DNA of 64,000 bases from the NCBI GenBank assembly GCA_001602645.1, contig LUYE01000010.1, positions 1 through 64,000 on the forward strand, written 5' to 3'. The DNA comes from Methanosarcinales archaeon Methan_01 (GTDB lineage: Archaea; Halobacteriota; Methanosarcinia; Methanotrichales; Methanotrichaceae). Under the pieces are notes generated by a model that saw nothing but the letters and a program-made list of their open reading frames with translations, was not told the origin of the DNA and made no database searches. Positions within the stretch are counted from its first letter, which is position 1, and every line of letters starts with the position of its first letter. The position numbers and the translations under genes were made by a program. Below are positions 45,952 to 62,994 of the stretch, in pieces.

Positions 45952-47994
45952 TCAGGACTTCACCGATATTCTACAGGCTGCCATCTTATATTCCGGGATC
46001 TTGGCGACGGGGTCGAGGGCATCGGAGGTGATGACGTTCGTCGCCTGCCAGTGGAAGGGCATGAAGACCATCCCCGGCTTCACCCTTTTCGTCACTCGGG
46101 CCCGGGCCTCGACCTCCCCCCGGACCGTCTTGACCTTTACCATATCTCCTTCGGAGACCAAGAGCCTCGCCGCATCCTCTGGATTGATCTCGACGTAGAG
46201 CTCAGGGTCTCTATCCAGGAGGGAGGGGCTCCGCCTCGTCATGGAGCCGCTGTTGTAGTGGACCACGATCCTTCCGGTGGAGAGGAGGATCGGATACTCG
46301 GGGCTCGTCTCCTCGGCTGCGGGCCTGTTATCCGCGGAGGCGATATTCGCCCTGCCGCTGGGGGTGGAGAACCTCTCTTGATGGAGGATCTCGGTCCCAG
46401 GATGGCTTCCGTCAGGGCAGGGCCAGAGGAGGCCCCCCACCCGGGAGATACGCTCCCGGGTCATGCCGCCGTACTGGGGCACTGTCCTGTTTATCTCTTT
46501 GAGGACCAGATCGGGACTCTCGCCTTTGAGATCCAAACCCATCCTCTTGCCGATCTCGTTTATGATCCAGAGCCCCTCCTTCGCCTCGCCGACGGGAGGG
46601 ACTGCCTTGTCGATCCACTGGACCCGCCGCTCCATGGAGGTGTAGCTTCCGTCCTTCTCCGCCCAGGCGGCCGCCGGCAGGACGAGATCGGCCATCCTGG
46701 CGGTGGCGGTCATGAAGATCTCCTGGACGATCAGAAAGTCGAGGCTCTCGAGGGCGGCTTTAGTCTTGTTGATATTGGCATCGCAGGTGACGGGATCTTC
46801 TCCTATGATGTACATCGCCCTGATCTTCCCCTCCAGCGCCGCCTCCGTCATCTCCGTGGCTGTGAGCCCCGGCCCCGGGGGCAGGTCCTCCACATCCCAA
46901 GCGGCCTTGAAAAATTCGATCGATCTCGGGTCTGAGGCTCTCCTGTAGCCTGGATAAAACTCGGCCATGCCGCCCATATCACAATTTCCCTGGACGTTGT
47001 TCTGGCCGCGCATCGGCCAGACGCCGGCCCCCGGCCTTCCCATCTGGCCGGCGATCAAGGCCAATGTGGCGCATGCCTTCACATTGTCGGTGCCGCAGAC
47101 GTGCTGGGTTATGCCCATGGAGTAGAGGAGAGAGGAGGCGGGAGACTGGGCATAGATTCGAGCGGCCTTGGCGATCTCTTCAGCGGAGACGCCCGTCACC
47201 TCAGCCGCCCTCTCCAGGGAATAGCCGCGGAGGTTTTCAGAAAGCGTTTCGAAGCCCTCCGTCCTCTCTTCGATGACCTTCTCATCGGCCAGCCCTTCAA
47301 CCACGATCACCTTCATCATCCCCCTCAAGAGATCGATGTCGCTTCCAGGGTTGATCCGGAGGTGCAGATCTGCCATCCAGGATGTGGATGTGATCCGCGG
47401 ATCAGCGACGATCACCTTCGCGCCATTCTCCTTCGCCTTTTGCACCCAGCGGGAGACGACGGGATGAGCCTCGGCGAAGTTTGTGCCTATGGCAAAGATG
47501 CACCTTGAGTTTTTGAGGTCTATGAGGTTGTTGGTCATGGCTCCTGTCCCCAGGACCGCGCCCAGGCCTACGACGGTAGGCGAATGGCAGAGGCGGGCGC
47601 AGTTGTCTACGTTGGGTGAGCCCAGGAGGCGGGCGAGCTTCTCCATCAGATAGTTCTCTTCGTTATTGCATCGAGATGAGGCCAAAAAGCCCAGGGATTT
47701 TGGCCCGTGGTCTTTTATGTTGCGGGCCAGGCCCTTTGCAGCCAGATCGAGGGCCTCCTCCCAGGAGATCCTCTCAAATTCGTCTCCTCTCCTCTTCAAG
47801 GGATATTTGAGCCGGTCCTCACTATTCAAGATCTCAAGGACGGCATTGCCTTTGGGGCAGAGGGCTCCCTCACAGGTCGGGTGGTCTTTCATATACTCAA
47901 CGCCGACGGCTTTGCCCCTCTCCACAACGAGGTAATAACCACAACCTACTGCACAGTAAGGGCAAAGAGATGGCACCATTTTTGTGGACAATTC
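45952..47994 (-). CDS. fdhA: Short formate dehydrogenase alpha subunit
   Basis: A 680-residue catalytic subunit of the formate dehydrogenase type with one N-terminal [4Fe-4S] motif (CPYCAVGCGYYL and CPKG) and the bis-pterin domains. The metal ligand is Cys in CARLCHSPTVVGLG. GQNNVQGNCDMGGM and the C-terminal NSGSMTRRS, FMPFHWQATNVI are typical. It lacks the NuoG-like extension of the other copy. GGAGGATATGAA stands ahead of TTG 47994; TTG 48015, directly after the fmdB stop, and ATG 47979 are alternatives. Its position right behind fmdB suggests it works with the formylmethanofuran dehydrogenase. Confidence 0.88.
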   Translation of the reverse strand, partial: ELSTKMVPSLCPYCAVGCGYYLVVERGKAVGVEYMKDHPTCEGALCPKGNAVLEILNSEDRLKYPLKRRGDEFERISWEEALDLAAKGLARNIKDHGPKSLGFLASSRCNNEENYLMEKLARLLGSPNVDNCARLCHSPTVVGLGAVLGTGAMTNNLIDLKNSRCIFAIGTNFAEAHPVVSRWVQKAKENGAKVIVADPRITSTSWMADLHLRINPGSDIDLLRGMMKVIVVEGLADEKVIEERTEGFETLSENLRGYSLERAAEVTGVSAEEIAKAARIYAQSPASSLLYSMGITQHVCGTDNVKACATLALIAGQMGRPGAGVWPMRGQNNVQGNCDMGGMAEFYPGYRRASDPRSIEFFKAAWDVEDLPPGPGLTATEMTEAALEGKIRAMYIIGEDPVTCDANINKTKAALESLDFLIVQEIFMTATARMADLVLPAAAWAEKDGSYTSMERRVQWIDKAVPPVGEAKEGLWIINEIGKRMGLDLKGESPDLVLKEINRTVPQYGGMTRERISRVGGLLWPCPDGSHPGTEILHQERFSTPSGRANIASADNRPAAEETSPEYPILLSTGRIVVHYNSGSMTRRSPSLLDRDPELYVEINPEDAARLLVSEGDMVKVKTVRGEVEARARVTKRVKPGMVFMPFHWQATNVITSDALDPVAKIPEYKMAACRISVKS

Positions 47995-48015
47995 ATATCC
48001 TCCGGAAGTGAGCAA

Positions 48016-53349: not shown

Positions 53350-53982
53350 TTAACCCCCCGTCAAATCGATCTGGATATTTTTGCTCGATCTTTCAGCGCA
53401 GCCTCTGCAGAGCCCCTCATCACCCCGAAGAACGAAGCTTTCGCCGCACTCCCTGCAGACTGCGATCCTCTTCACCGGCTTTTCCGGTACCTTGACGTCC
53501 ACCATCTCCCAGGTGTAAACCCCGTCTTCGGCCCTGATCAGGTCTGAGATCGCCTCCTCGTGGGAGACCAGCCCAGCATTCATGTACCAGGAATGAAGCC
53601 TTGGATAAGAGGCGGTCTTAGCTGGGTCGAGGACAATCCTTACTCCTTTGGCTGTAGCCGCACCTTTCGGAGCCCTCCTGGAGATCGTCGCTGCCATCTT
53701 GCCATGATCCTCAATCTTGAGCCCTTTATTTCCGATGGTGCAACCCCCCAGAACCTGAAGGGCGTCAGGCATGCAGCTTAAAGTCTCGCAGGTGACGAAG
53801 AGCCTATCTCCTTCCGAAAATCCCAACGACCTTCTGGCGATGTTATAGATCTGGATGCCGACGAAGACTCCTGTGCTGAGGTAGCCGTGAAAGGGGACGA
53901 CCCTCTCGATCTGCGAAAGCATCTCCGGGTCGGTTATCGATCTTATGACCTCCTCCAAGGAAGGAAACCTCCTCCCGCCCAT
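53350..53982 (-). CDS. fmdE: FmdE, formylmethanofuran dehydrogenase-associated protein with zinc ribbon
   Basis: A 210-residue protein. The N-terminal FmdE domain has VPFHGYLSTGVFVGIQIYN, the conserved CETLSCMPDALQVLGGCTIGN and an LRIVL-like strand (VRIVLDP). The C-terminal zinc ribbon is CRECGESF and CRGC. Its exact function in the complex is unsettled. ATG 53982 is 30 bases from a minus-strand TATA (AATATACAAA, 54007-54016), so it is the leaderless first gene of the fmdEFACDB array, the order described for the molybdenum operon of Methanosarcina barkeri. Confidence 0.9.
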   Translation of the reverse strand: MGGRRFPSLEEVIRSITDPEMLSQIERVVPFHGYLSTGVFVGIQIYNIARRSLGFSEGDRLFVTCETLSCMPDALQVLGGCTIGNKGLKIEDHGKMAATISRRAPKGAATAKGVRIVLDPAKTASYPRLHSWYMNAGLVSHEEAISDLIRAEDGVYTWEMVDVKVPEKPVKRIAVCRECGESFVLRGDEGLCRGCAERSSKNIQIDLTGG

Positions 53983-54006
53983 CAAGTATCAGAAGGTTTA
54001 AGAAGG

Positions 54007-54016
54007 TTTGTATATT
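54007..54016 (-). promoter_or_regulatory. TATA box of the fmd operon
   Basis: The minus strand reads AATATACAAA, centred 30 bases upstream of ATG 53982. No ribosome-binding site lies between, so fmdE is probably read from a leaderless message. Confidence 0.5.
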
Positions 54017-54019
54017 CGC

Positions 54020-54600
54020 TTGCTTGAAGGGAGATATGCCGGCGTCTGCATTTGCTGATGGCGAGGGGCAGGCCCTCTCCAAGATGGGATCTCCGAGGGG
54101 GTGATAACGCGAACCTGTTCGAGATCCTCATCGATGGCAGGTAGGTCGATTCGACGGACTGAAACGGCTGTACCGATCCACCTCCCTGCACAGGAGAGGC
54201 TGTGGCAGAAGTTTCCATGAGAGGAAGGGCGGATCCATTCCCTCGCCGTAGAGGCAGCGGCGAGGGACTTTCCAGGATCGTCGAAGGCCGACCCCAGGGA
54301 GCGGGGAGACCTCCTCCGCCGAGGGGCGGAAGCGGTCCGGGATAGGATCGAAGAGATCGCTCATCCATGGGATTAGCGAGGAGGGATCGTCCTCCAGGTC
54401 CCCCTCCGACGGCGGGAAGGATAGCGGAATCGATCGCCGGCGGTCCCCGACCGCCCTCCGCGAGTACATGGAGGAGAAGCAGATCCGGATAGGTCTGAGG
54501 GGAATAGATTTTAAGCCCCCTTTTGGGGCTGCTCACCTGCCAATTTTGCAAGAGGGGTCTTCTGCCGCCTGAATCTGAGCAGATAGGATCTCGGTCAGCT
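54020..54600 (+). other. Interval between fmdE and the mod operator with traces of a decayed gene
   Basis: No intact gene. Short plus-strand fragments in different frames look like coding remnants: ANLFEILIDGR near 54113-54156, and ALREYMEEKQIRIGLRGIDF near 54450-54515. The latter resembles the C-terminal end of archaeal AAA-type (DUF4143-like) ATPases. Stops and frame changes separate them. This is weak evidence. The stretch 54225-54330 is GC-rich with self-complementary parts. Confidence 0.25.
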
Positions 54601-54612
54601 GAGGGGAACCTT

Positions 54613-54680
54613 CTTATAAGTTCACATATATGCTCACTTAATCGAAAAAAGTAAGCATATATGCTTACATATATGGTGAG
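54613..54680 (+). promoter_or_regulatory. Mod promoter with palindromic operator (three CATATATG cores)
   Basis: TTATAAG at 54614-54620 is a TATA-like element. Around it lie three CATATATG cores at 54625-54632, 54656-54663 and 54668-54675. The middle one is within a perfect 18-base palindrome, GTAAGCATATATGCTTAC (54651-54668), and the first lies in a 14/18 match to the same sequence. The sites overlap the expected transcription start of modA. This looks like a dimeric repressor site for Mo/W response; the regulator is not identified here. Confidence 0.65.
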
Positions 54681-54705
54681 CGGACATTCTGGAGGATGAT
54701 GATTG

Positions 54706-55554
54706 ATGATCAAGAGACTTGTATTGTTGGCCTCGATGGCTGTCCTGGTTTTTTCCTCGTCTGCGGTATCGGCTGATGAGCCAGAAGAGCTCGTAGTCTT
54801 CACAGCGGCGTCGTTGACGGGCGCTTTCAGCGAGATAGCGGAGATGTATGAGGATGAGACCGGCATCAAGGTCGTCTCCAACTTCGACGGCTCCCAGGCT
54901 CTCCGCACTCAGATAGAACATGGGGCCTACGCCGACGTCTTCGCCTCTGCCAATAATAAGCAGATGAATGCTCTAAAGGATCTTGGGCTCATGAACAACA
55001 GCAGCGTCTCCATCTTCACCAGGAATAAGCTGTCGTTGATAATTCCCAAGGATAATCCGGCGGAGATATCCAACCTTCGCGACATTGTGAAGCCAGGAGT
55101 GAAGATTGTTATAGGGACGAAGGATGTGCCCGTTGGCGATTATGCGCTACAAATCATAGACAAGCTGGGAAATGATTCTGCTTATGGTCCTGAATATAAA
55201 GAAAAGGTCCTGGCCAACATAATCTCCCAGGAGACGAACGTCAACTATGTTGTGACCAAGATCGCTCTGGGGGAGGCCGATGTGGGCTTTGCCTATGTAT
55301 CCGATGTCACCCTGGAGCTGTCGAGCAGGGTCAGCCAGATCGAGATACCAGACGAGTACAACATCATCGCTGAGTATCCCATAGGAATAACGACCGAATC
55401 CAGATACGCCGCAGAAGCTCTAGACTTCATAAATTTGGTGAAGTCAGAAGAGGGCAGAGCCGTTTTGGAGAGATACGGATTCTCTCCGGTATTGGATTCT
55501 GTCGCTGCATCAGAGGTATCCGGCACCACAGAGGAGCCGATGGCAGCCGCTTGA
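54706..55554 (+). CDS. modA: Molybdate/tungstate ABC transporter, substrate-binding protein
   Basis: A 282-residue exported binding protein. Residues 1-~23 are a signal peptide ending VSA. The mature part has LVVFTAASLTGAFSEIAE, the oxyanion Ser residues in AASL, NFDGSQALRTQIEHGAYADVFAS, and DVGFAYVSDV: the ModA/WtpA pattern. Whether molybdate or tungstate is preferred cannot be read. The C-terminus is Ala-rich without a lipobox at the start. GGAGGATGAT lies before ATG 54706. Preceded by the palindromic operator. Confidence 0.93.
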   Translation: MIKRLVLLASMAVLVFSSSAVSADEPEELVVFTAASLTGAFSEIAEMYEDETGIKVVSNFDGSQALRTQIEHGAYADVFASANNKQMNALKDLGLMNNSSVSIFTRNKLSLIIPKDNPAEISNLRDIVKPGVKIVIGTKDVPVGDYALQIIDKLGNDSAYGPEYKEKVLANIISQETNVNYVVTKIALGEADVGFAYVSDVTLELSSRVSQIEIPDEYNIIAEYPIGITTESRYAAEALDFINLVKSEEGRAVLERYGFSPVLDSVAASEVSGTTEEPMAAA

Positions 55555-55723
55555 GATAGGTGCTCCGTCCGGGCACAAGCAGGCAAAGATCGCCTGCCTG
55601 CCCTTTGATTTGAATTAGATGGATTTAAATCGGTTCAAGCCGCAAGTTGTCGAGGCATATTTTCACATGTATTTTCATCTATATTAAATACTATTTAAGT
55701 CAATATTGGATGTGGTGATTGAA

Positions 55724-56521
55724 ATGGAGCGAAAATATAATGGACGGCTGGAAGGGAGGACGGCGATAGTTACCGGATCGACTTACGGGATAGGGGAAGC
55801 CATAGCAAAAGTGCTGTCAAGCGAAGGCGCAATCTCGATCATTACCGAGAGGACGGATGAGGAGGGCGAGAGGGTCGCTGAGGAGATAAAATCAGCTTCT
55901 GGAGCCGCAGAGTTCCATCATGTGGACGAGACGGATGAGAGGGAGGTCGGCGAGGTCGCCCGAGCCACCTACGAGAGATACGGCAAGATAGACATCCTGG
56001 TGAACAATGCAGGCATAGCGGGTCCAAACAAGCCAACCCACGAGTACACTAAGGACGAATGGGAGCACGTCTTTGACGTGAACGTCACGGGGGCATTCCT
56101 CTGCACCAAGCATGTTGTCCCTTACATGAAGAAGGGCGGAGGCGGAAATATCGTCTACATATCATCGATATATGGAATAGTAGGAGCCCAAGACATTCCC
56201 GCCTACCACGCAACGAAGGCCTCGAACAGGATAATGGCCAAGATAGATGCCCTCCTCTATGCGAAGGACAATATAAGGGTCAACTCAGTCCATCCGGGTC
56301 TCATCTGGACCCCGCTGGTCAAGGATTTCCTCAAAGATCAGTCTGAAAAGTCGGCGGTTCCCATCGAGGATCTGAGAAGAGAGCTGGACGCAGAGCATCC
56401 AATAGGCCACATCGGAGAGCCGAATGACATCGCCCGCGGTGTGTTGTACCTCGTCTCGGACGAGGCGAAGTTCGTCACCGGAGAGGAGCTGGTCATAGAC
56501 GGGGGGTACACCAGCAGGTGA
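55724..56521 (+). CDS. Short-chain dehydrogenase/reductase inside the mod gene group
   Basis: A 265-residue classical SDR. The cofactor motif is TGSTYGIG (17-24), then LVNNAGIAG, ISSIYGIVG with the active Ser, and the YHATK Tyr/Lys pair; it closes with ELVIDGGYTSR. The acidic residue pattern after strand 2 (ITERTDEEGE) does not settle NAD versus NADP. Substrate unknown. It has its own A/T-rich promoter region (55678-55700) and GGTGAT ahead of ATG 55724. It separates modA from modB, which normally adjoin, so it is likely an insertion into the operon. Confidence 0.85.
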   Translation: MERKYNGRLEGRTAIVTGSTYGIGEAIAKVLSSEGAISIITERTDEEGERVAEEIKSASGAAEFHHVDETDEREVGEVARATYERYGKIDILVNNAGIAGPNKPTHEYTKDEWEHVFDVNVTGAFLCTKHVVPYMKKGGGGNIVYISSIYGIVGAQDIPAYHATKASNRIMAKIDALLYAKDNIRVNSVHPGLIWTPLVKDFLKDQSEKSAVPIEDLRRELDAEHPIGHIGEPNDIARGVLYLVSDEAKFVTGEELVIDGGYTSR

Positions 56522-56652: not shown

Positions 56653-57450
56653 TTGAGGGAGATAGCTCTGAAGGCGGCGATCGCCTTGGTCATCTGCCTG
56701 ACCATGGCTTTCATAGCTTTGCCGATAGCATCTCTCTTCCTTAAAAACTCCCCGGATGCAGTGCTCCGGTCCATGAACGATCCAGCGGTGAAGGACGCCC
56801 TCCGGCTGAGCCTTACGACCTCAACCCTCACCACGTTGATAGTCATCCTCATGGGGACGCCCGTGGCTTACGTAAACGCCCGTTTCAGCTATTTTGGCAA
56901 AGAGATGGTGGATTCCTTAATCGATCTGCCGGTGATCATGCCCCCGGCAGTTGCTGGAATTGCGCTCCTGATGGCATTTGGGCGGATGGGAATAGTCGGG
57001 CAACACCTGAACGCCCTCGGCTTTTCCATCGCCTTCACCACCCTGGCGGTGATCTTCGCCCAGGTATTTGTATCCTCCCCATTTTACATCCGCCAAGCCA
57101 GGACGAGCTTCGAAGACGTCGATCTATCCTTCGAAAATGCTGCGCGGACCCTGGGGGCCTCCAGGATCTATGCCTTCTTCCACGTCACCCTGCCCATGGC
57201 CATGAACGGCCTGATCTCCGGGGCCATCATGGCCTTTGCCCGCTCTCTGGGCGAGTTCGGTGCCACAATAATGTTCGCCGGCAACTTCCAGGGAAGGACG
57301 CAGACCATGCCTCTGGCCATTTACACGACGATGCAGGGAGATCTGGATGTGGCTCTCTGTCTTGCTCTGATCCTGGTTGCCATCTCATTTCTGATCATCG
57401 CGCTGGTAAAAAACCTTACCCGCCGGATGTATAAAAATGTTAGAAATTGA
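56653..57450 (+). CDS. modB: Molybdate/tungstate ABC transporter, permease
   Basis: A 265-residue membrane protein with about six transmembrane helices. It has the permease signature loop ENAARTLGASRIYAFFHVTLP (the EAA motif, given here in pieces: ENAARTLGAS and FFHVTLP) that contacts the ATPase, and LPVIMPPAVAGIALL. The start is TTG 56653. A TATA-like AGTTATAATG lies around 56532-56541. It overlaps modC by 14 bases. Confidence 0.92.
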   Translation: MREIALKAAIALVICLTMAFIALPIASLFLKNSPDAVLRSMNDPAVKDALRLSLTTSTLTTLIVILMGTPVAYVNARFSYFGKEMVDSLIDLPVIMPPAVAGIALLMAFGRMGIVGQHLNALGFSIAFTTLAVIFAQVFVSSPFYIRQARTSFEDVDLSFENAARTLGASRIYAFFHVTLPMAMNGLISGAIMAFARSLGEFGATIMFAGNFQGRTQTMPLAIYTTMQGDLDVALCLALILVAISFLIIALVKNLTRRMYKNVRN

Positions 57451-58165
57451 TGTCAAGAAAAAGCTGAGGGATTTCGATCTTGAATTGAGTATCAAGATTT
57501 CTAGGGGGGAGATCCTCATGCTGGTGGGAGATAACGGTTGCGGAAAGACCACCCTGCTGAACATGATAGCTGGCCTCATCGAACCCGATTCAGGGATGAT
57601 AGGGTTAGATGGAAGACCGCTATTTGATTCAAGCATCAAAATAGATATCGCTCCGGAGAGGAGGAGGATCGGGTATGTCTTTCAAAGCTATGCGCTCTTC
57701 CCCCACATGAGCGTCTACGAGAACGTGGCCTTTGGCCTGCGGACCCGCAATCTATCGAATAGAGAGATCGAACTCCTGGTGAGGGACCACCTCGCCGATG
57801 CCGGCCTCTGGGAGATCAGGAATGCCCGAGCCATGAAGATCTCTGGTGGCCAAAAGCAGCGTGTAGCCCTGGCGAGGGCGCTAATAATTGAGCCAGATAT
57901 CCTCCTGCTGGACGAACCGCTATCCTCCCTGGACATCAGAAAGCAGGCTGAAATGAGAAGAGAGCTTCGAGAAAAGCTCCGTTCTTACGCCGTTCCAAGC
58001 ATCATGGTCACTCATGATCTCAGGGACGTGGCGTCCATAGGGGACAGGGCATGCCTCATGGAGAGGGGAAAGATCGCGCTGGAGGGGAGAGTGGAGGATG
58101 TTATGAGTTGGGCTTCGGTCCATTCTGAAATAGAAGGAGAGGATAGTGGCTCCCTCATGAGATGA
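57437..58165 (+). CDS. modC: Molybdate/tungstate ABC transporter, ATP-binding subunit
   Basis: A 242-residue ABC ATPase. Walker A is GDNGCGKTT (31-39), Q-loop FQSYALFPH (82-90), signature ISGGQKQR (135-142, first residue Ile rather than Leu), Walker B ILLLDEP (155-161), and switch His in VTHD. It has no C-terminal Mop/TOBE regulatory domain, unlike E. coli ModC. It overlaps modB by 14 bases and is the last gene of the transporter. Confidence 0.92.
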   Translation: MLEIDVKKKLRDFDLELSIKISRGEILMLVGDNGCGKTTLLNMIAGLIEPDSGMIGLDGRPLFDSSIKIDIAPERRRIGYVFQSYALFPHMSVYENVAFGLRTRNLSNREIELLVRDHLADAGLWEIRNARAMKISGGQKQRVALARALIIEPDILLLDEPLSSLDIRKQAEMRRELREKLRSYAVPSIMVTHDLRDVASIGDRACLMERGKIALEGRVEDVMSWASVHSEIEGEDSGSLMR

Positions 58166-61974: not shown

Positions 61975-62994
61975 TTGAATAGCCCTTTGGAGGGGATGGG
62001 GGCCAAAGCCCAGGAGGCGAAAGATACGGTATACCAGGTGAAGCTGATATCGATGGAGGAGAAGGGAGCCCTGGCGGAGCGGTGCGGTCTCCAGGTGAGG
62101 TACGAGGTGAAGTCGGAGATCTACGGCTGCTGCATCAAGCTCCTCACCGGATCGGCGGAGGTGAGAGATCGGTGGATGGAGAGCTTCTACTTCATATCCC
62201 AGAACATAAGGTCCCACGCCAGGCTCTACGTCGTCAGCGACCCCGTGATGGGGGACGACCTCGTCTTCTATGACCCCCAGTCCAAGACCGCCTTCCTCGT
62301 CAACGTCACCTATTACGGCTGGATCAAGTCCCTCGCCCTCAGCGCCGCGGGGGACGTCCTGGAGGACCAGCACGGGATCTACTCCGTCCACGGAGCCTGC
62401 CTCGACCTCCGGGGCCGCGGGATCTGCCTCCTGGGCGGGTCGGGGGCGGGGAAGACGACCCACACCTACGGCCTCCTGAGGAGGCCCGAGACCAGGGTCG
62501 TCTCCGACGACTGGTTCTTCGCCCGGATCTACGGCGACGACGTCCTGGCCTTCGGCTCGGAGAAGAACTTCTACATCAGGGCGGAGCTCTCGGAGATCTG
62601 GAGGGAGTTCTCGGGGCTCATCGAGAAGGCCGAGTTCGACGGGGAGGGGAGAGGGGTCGTCGACCTCCGTCTCGCCATCGGCAAGGGCCGGATCCTCCCC
62701 CTAACCACCCTGTCGGCGGTGATCGTCCTCAAGCGCGACCCCAATGACGAGGTGATAACGAGGAGGCTCTCCCCCGGAGAGGCCCTCTCGATCCTGGAGG
62801 AGGACGGCTACTTCAACCCTCACCTCCTGGTGAAGGGCGAGTTCAAGGGGTCCCTCCGGAGCGGATTCTTCCGGGAGCTCTTCTCCAGGGTCCCAGCCTT
62901 CATCGTCAACACCGTCAACGAACCCGAGGAGAGCCAGAGGGCGATAGGAGATCTCTTATCCGAAAGCCTCCGGCTGGACGGAGGGCTTCCGTAA
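61975..62994 (+). CDS. HprK/PEPCK-like P-loop kinase-type protein
   Basis: A 339-residue protein. The P-loop GGSGAGKTT (154-162) is followed by VVSDDW (175-180), where paired Asp residues stand in HPr kinase/phosphorylase and PEP carboxykinase-like folds. The N-terminal ~130 residues are a separate alpha/beta domain. There is no HPr in this kind of organism as far as I know, so the target is different. It starts 12 bases after the acyl-CoA synthetase and is probably co-expressed; control of that enzyme is a guess. TTG 61975 lacks a ribosome-binding site; ATG 61996 or 62053 may be real. Confidence 0.65.
   Translation: MNSPLEGMGAKAQEAKDTVYQVKLISMEEKGALAERCGLQVRYEVKSEIYGCCIKLLTGSAEVRDRWMESFYFISQNIRSHARLYVVSDPVMGDDLVFYDPQSKTAFLVNVTYYGWIKSLALSAAGDVLEDQHGIYSVHGACLDLRGRGICLLGGSGAGKTTHTYGLLRRPETRVVSDDWFFARIYGDDVLAFGSEKNFYIRAELSEIWREFSGLIEKAEFDGEGRGVVDLRLAIGKGRILPLTTLSAVIVLKRDPNDEVITRRLSPGEALSILEEDGYFNPHLLVKGEFKGSLRSGFFRELFSRVPAFIVNTVNEPEESQRAIGDLLSESLRLDGGLP

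Follow-up and report, generated by a model that had tools for sequence, protein, structure and literature searches.

The window analysed here, the whole stretch of 64 kb, carries a predicted operator between two gene sets, with a formylmethanofuran dehydrogenase (fmd) operon that includes an fdhA-like gene on the minus strand to its left, and with modA, a short-chain dehydrogenase gene, modB and modC to its right. The molybdate-binding protein gene modA (54703-55554, plus strand) and the permease gene modB (56653-57450, plus strand) are matched above their model cut-offs (TIGR01256, 156.8 bits against 62.5; TIGR02141, 225.7 bits against 182.6), and the ATPase gene modC (57437-58165, plus strand) has TIGR02142 modC as its best NCBIfam match, at 206.7 bits under a cut-off of 285. 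The short-chain dehydrogenase gene lies at 55706-56521, between modA and modB, and a gene of the same cluster occupies this place in the congener G005 (L057:3604-4413). The first gene of the fmd operon is fmdE (53350-53985, minus strand; PF02663, 109 bits), and the operon ends with an fdhA-type formate dehydrogenase gene (45952-48015; TIGR01591, 829 bits), which is unexpected in a group of acetate-using methanogens.

Operator sites and chance

Upstream of modA, GTAAGCATATATGCTTAC forms a perfect 18-bp palindrome at 54651-54668, as an earlier sequence-only reading had claimed, and CATATATG, which that reading took for the core of a triple operator with steps of 31 and 12 bases, is present exactly three times in the window (54625, 54656 and 54668). 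The palindrome is the second of two 18-bp dyads that share one frame at an offset of 31 bp, GTTCAC-N6-GCTCAC (site 1, 54620-54637) and GTAAGC-N6-GCTTAC (site 2, 54651-54668), with a composite span of 49 bp. Site 1 (GTTCAC-ATATAT-GCTCAC) is the weaker dyad with a strong right half; it scores 13.5 by a matrix made from site-2 sequences of modA promoters, the second-best position of the window, and its frame is kept in G005 (GTTTACATTAATGCTTAC) and others. Site 2 (GTAAGC-ATATAT-GCTTAC) has arms that are kept and a core that varies in relatives. The pair at 54620/54651 fits a GTnAnC-N6-GnTnAC-like pattern with a spacing of 31 or 32 bp, and a molybdate/tungstate (Mo/W) transporter operon, modABC, lies downstream of it. 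The third CATATATG, at 54668-54675, is unconserved (G005 has CTTATAA and G007 CATGCCC at that place) and is probably fortuitous. From its position and its conservation in aligned modA promoters, where most relatives have TTAATAAG or TTAAATAAG, CTTATAAG at 54613-54620 (plus strand) is the putative archaeal TATA box of modA. Since it stands directly before site 1, transcription would be expected to start between the two sites, about 26 bp past the TATA centre, at roughly 54641-54645. A predicted ribosome-binding site, GGAGG, follows at 54691-54695 (plus strand).

Neither the three cores at these steps nor the palindrome has a counterpart by chance, be it in the window or in the genome. In shuffled windows CATATATG occurred 0.13 times on average and none of 100 shuffles reached three, and the palindromic 18-mer, with up to three mismatches, had a single match in the window and a single match in the 2.61-Mb host genome, which was itself. 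The A/T-rich block to which the earlier reading had pointed does stand out (67% A+T at 54606-54690 vs 38% for the window), and the unrelated genome-wide copies that it had named as counter-evidence were not found in the host. Neither chance nor other genomic copies explain the palindrome and the three cores. Exact arms with a free 6-base spacer occur once in the host genome, with three further sites at one mismatch; arms at two mismatches, tried as a whole-genome pattern, gave 170 sites against 114 for a reversed control and were rejected as too loose. Over 50 Methanotrichaceae genomes exact arms matched at 23 sites and the reversed control at 17, and 10 of the 23 precede modA. None of the remaining 13 adjoins Mo/W genes, which places single sites elsewhere at background level. 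One strong single site (score 25.1; G009:C40, L037) stands alone, with no partner site, ahead of a gene for a secreted protein unrelated to Mo/W. The pair score at 54620/54651 is 41.8, and none of 349 control regions reached it.

Conservation and regulon

modA was sought in 60 relatives (37 taken to be Methanotrichaceae, 2 of a second family, f2, and 21 of a third, probably Methanosarcinaceae), with a match in 46 of them. The DNA ahead of modA was read in either orientation, after which 28 promoter rows were scanned, a score of at least 9 counting as a site. Sites were found in 21 of the 28 rows, a count that is partly circular, as the matrix was trained on 14 typed modA sites; this circularity affects neither the spacing nor the rows for tup/wtp. 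The seven rows without a site comprise the downstream member of a modA tandem (second gene, G030), divergent second copies in G032, G014, G031, G022 and G028, and G033b, where the contig ends. In the relatives the arms are constant (GTAAGC/GCTTAC, or GTAAAC/GTTTAC, GTAATC) and the six central bases change (AAATGT, ACTAAT, GTTTGT and GTTTTT before modA). With fixed arms, a variable core and an unconserved third copy, we rejected the idea that the regulator recognises a triple CATATATG.

Spacing was examined as the distance from the best site of a promoter to its best partner in a range of 18-70 bp. Among modA promoters the partner lies exactly 31 or 32 bp off in 16 of 21, and among tupA/wtpA/fmd promoters in 12 of 21. 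This compares with 19 of 349 control regions, some of which contain sites of these promoters viewed from an adjacent ORF. The controls include ORFs that overlap or face these sites (pair sums of 27.7, 24.4, 22.8 and 19.8 match L170, L174, L177 and L165), so the contrast is understated rather than overstated, and this applies equally to the 359 comparison genes of the tupA/wtpA scan below; the genomes in all of these counts are related and not independent.

The modA-only matrix was applied to 35 named Methanotrichaceae-type loci (L150-L184), in which WtpA was assigned above its cut-off and TupA by best NCBIfam match under the model cut-off. Scores of at least 10 were found in 12 of 19 tupA/wtpA promoters and, for the remaining genes at these loci, in 11 of 359. 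In a scan of 18 tfx loci, sites precede tupABC-tfx (G013, G018, G021, G023 and G028), wtpABC-tfx (G020), tupA of G007 and an fdhB/fmdB operon of G009, and the other loci of this set have no such site. An operator at the transcription start of modA and tied to Mo/W genes, as the sequence-only reading proposed, thus holds up: it is unique in the host genome, and paired dyads recur before the molybdate/tungstate transporter operons of relatives. In the host, the two top sites of the tupA promoter and those of a second modA-like gene are weak and 32 bp apart in each case, with pair sums of 10.2 and 10.4 that 6 of 349 control regions reach; tupA promoters of the host's own genus are generally weak by the matrix. 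The second modA-like transporter (L062:9396-12123, on G000:C34) is 30% identical and adjoins a CBS-domain protein and a ferredoxin, both named by eye. Among distant lineages, a single site (15.9-16.4) of the GTAAACATATTCGATTTC type precedes tfx by about 70 bp in each of three Bathyarchaeota loci (L191:7922, L194:7918 and L195:1632), which suggests that tfx may be autoregulated there; the distant-lineage loci L207, L211, L212, L214 and L215 have no full matrix match.

It had also been proposed that the modA operator may act on the divergent fmd operon. This part is weak for the window, where about 630 bp separate the operator from fmdE, the remains of an aldehyde dehydrogenase gene lie between, and fmdE has only a weak, half-conserved site of its own (54006-54023; GCAAGCGAATATACAAAC on the fmd strand), which at 9.3 is the third-best matrix position of the window. 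This site is stronger in the two congeners G005 and G007 (GTAAGCGAATATACAAAC, 13.2). The remains, outside the operator at 54124-54503 (plus strand), were recognised by tblastn with the protein of the intact G005 gene (L057:954-2384); they align at residues 1-79 and 440-475 only and contain internal stops. A link between such sites and fmd genes finds support in other relatives, including the G009 operon: in G014 a dyad pair lies between divergent modA and fmdE and is common to both, and in G032 a site scoring 25.5 stands 81 bp before fmdF.

Candidate regulator

The regulator profiles covered Tfx and ModE/HTH_1. Tfx belongs to a family of archaeal DNA-binding proteins whose role is poorly known, and the host encodes one outside the window (G000:C53:11145-11543; TIGR00721, 137 bits against a cut-off of 60.25; TFX_C, 98 bits), whose closest named relative is that of Methanothrix harundinacea. 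TIGR00721 matched 36 of 37 Methanotrichaceae, both f2 genomes (G037 and G039), where tfx is divergent and adjoins modA, and none of the 21 genomes of f3, the third family. HTH_1, the ModE domain, matched in all 21 f3 genomes and in 13 of 37 Methanotrichaceae. Fifteen HTH_1 loci were translated: the six from f3 look like ModE, and the nine from Methanotrichaceae, a set that omits the remaining weak matches of that family, are not ModE (presumably eight CARF-HTH-like proteins and one LysR-like regulator). The TIGR00637 (ModE) search found nothing in the host genome (assembly 98.95% complete) and was positive in Methanosarcina acetivorans and E. coli. Among the 60 genomes ModE is replaced exactly where Tfx is present, except for one Methanotrichaceae genome with neither.

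An alignment scan for Tfx of 84,980 genomes gave 66 loci in named archaea, many of them on short contigs. A tup, wtp or mod transporter gene lies in the fetched flanks of tfx at 25 of the 66, often with tfx last in tupABC-tfx, and tfx is the only DNA-binding gene that repeatedly occurs in or beside these operons, including the far lineages L207, L211, L212, L214 and L215. In the host itself tfx has no Mo/W gene near it, and the matrix scan of its locus gave no good site nearby. Host Tfx matches EnfR (PDB 8HNO) and MTH0916 (1NR3) over nearly the full length. Of the DNA-contacting arginines of EnfR, Arg35 and Arg44 are kept and Arg43 is lysine in the host (residue numbers follow the printed alignment, with Phe6 and Glu42 of the EnfR paper as a check).

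Comparison with described systems

The original work on Tfx and fmdECB is reportedly that of Hochheimer et al. (1999). The accessible part of a later article states that the fmdECB promoter of Methanothermobacter has Tfx bound on its downstream side and that tfx transcription is repressed by tungstate (PMC3087415). Protein family (TIGR00721, PF14601), a target downstream of a Mo/W-gene promoter and tungstate-linked expression, as far as that part goes, are what the present system would share. Unlike the fmdECB enzyme operon described there, the predicted targets here are the uptake operons modABC, tupABC-tfx and wtpABC-tfx, with some fmd genes. The accessible text of PMC3087415 gives no target sequence for Tfx, and a paired 18-bp dyad is described here.

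EnfR (TON_1525) of Thermococcus onnurineus, as described in the accessible part of PMC10570040, is a dimeric Tfx-family repressor with a minimal site of 18 bp that protects positions -44 to +3 and represses by road-block or hindrance. Its authors see no effector-binding domain, and they state that no target DNA sequence of the Tfx family had been reported before theirs (PMC10570040). From that part of the article, family, dimeric state, 18-bp minimal site, a symmetrical target just before the gene and repression are points of likeness; unlike the modA operator, EnfR controls a codh cluster, and the accessible text mentions no Mo/W link. The 36-bp EnfR target holds the half-site GTTTACAT of the modA operator, as did 70 of 20,000 shuffles, and against the full dyad it does no better than shuffles (279 of 5000 reach its match).

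TunR and NrpR are among the other archaeal regulators that act as small dimeric repressors, their operons serving metal or nitrogen metabolism; TunR belongs to the ModE-type HTH_1. E. coli ModE has a palindromic operator at the modA transcription start. The present operator resembles ModE/modA, of E. coli and of f3, in this position and in presumed repression by Mo/W; unlike ModE/modA it has another sequence and sites paired at 31-32 bp, in a family where the ModE gene was not found. In the open-licence literature we found no publication on this modA operator or on a Mo/W role of Tfx in Methanotrichaceae, and no Mo/W regulator of that family.

Interpretation

We consider it probable that the paired dyads form a two-site operator for Mo/W-responsive control of modABC, with Tfx as the most likely regulator, a reading that draws on the computed sites and their conservation, on how the pairs are spaced, on the tie to Mo/W transport genes, and on Tfx being present where ModE was not found. 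By sequence, the dyads are almost certainly an operator, their membership of a molybdate/tungstate-uptake regulon is very likely, and Tfx is likely to be the binder; position and gene function point to repression and to a Mo/W signal. Two dimers of one regulator, proposed to be the host Tfx, would occupy the two dyads on the same face of the DNA, as 31 bp correspond to three helical turns. Site 1 would lie between the TATA box and the expected start and site 2 just past that start. A regulator sitting there should obstruct RNA polymerase, and modABC uptake would be switched off at Mo/W sufficiency.

The most serious alternative, which we judge unlikely, keeps the operator and the Mo/W regulon and has another regulator bind them, tfx being merely a co-transcribed member. 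The unlinked host tfx without a site and the failure of the mapped EnfR site to match the full dyad fit this alternative, and since nearly all Methanotrichaceae genomes have Tfx, its presence alone does not discriminate. It is the recurrence of tfx, as the sole DNA-binding gene, in or beside transporter operons even of distant lineages, and its distribution where ModE is replaced, that argue for Tfx. That ModE itself, the classical molybdate repressor, binds here on a TATA-like palindrome is very improbable: the target gene is the same and the dyad similarly A/T-rich, and ModE-like sites (CGTTATGT-N8-ACATAACG) stand in the seven f3 modA loci read (L025-L031), but the host search was negative and the translated HTH_1 proteins of its family are not ModE. 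The operator sequence was also rejected as ModE-like, as the host arms GTAAGC/GCTTAC differ from the f3 CGTTATGT/ACATAACG.

Two further readings were weighed. CATATATG resembles archaeal TATA boxes and the region is a promoter, so the repeats might be TATA boxes of alternative promoters or simply A/T-rich promoter DNA; with a separate conserved TATA box upstream, arms fixed around a varying core, and a matrix that predicts tup/wtp sites, there is very little chance of this. An RNA element (a 5' leader hairpin, riboswitch or terminator-like structure) is the least probable of all. Site 2 lies past the expected start and can fold, and a pattern scan scored it as terminator-like on the minus strand, but site 1 would precede the start, and the helical spacing of 31-32 bp, like the presence of such sites ahead of different genes, favours an element that acts as DNA. 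A molybdenum-cofactor riboswitch was sought in 53900-54800, with no Rfam match up to E = 1.

Returning to Tfx as the regulator, a broader proposal is possible, and we put it forward tentatively: Tfx may be the Mo/W regulator that replaces ModE in Methanotrichaceae and several other archaeal lineages, repressing all oxyanion uptake operons, including its own, by way of 18-bp sites paired at three helical turns, and acting on fmd from a site in another position. The supply of Mo and W would then be balanced by one small protein in which no effector domain has been recognised. With this prediction, both an operator and a function become testable for the Tfx family. Methanothrix-type archaea produce, from acetate, much of biological methane, and how they are supplied with Mo/W matters in practice for digesters.

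Several observations concern neighbouring genes. modA adjoins nitrogenase-looking genes in many relatives (L048, L049, L050, L052, L053, L054, L058 and L059), which we take from gene sizes and clusters to be nifHDKEN with PII-type genes, and the site GTAAACATATATGTTTAC is found in G002 and G005 where modA has such neighbours. In some relatives modC is followed by a protein (L049:7174-7974, L055:454-1221) that we presume to be probably of the DUF4213/DUF364 kind and that may belong to Mo handling. In the window, the protein encoded at 61975-62994 gives a weak match, under the cut-off, to the HPr-kinase C-terminal domain, here in an archaeon.
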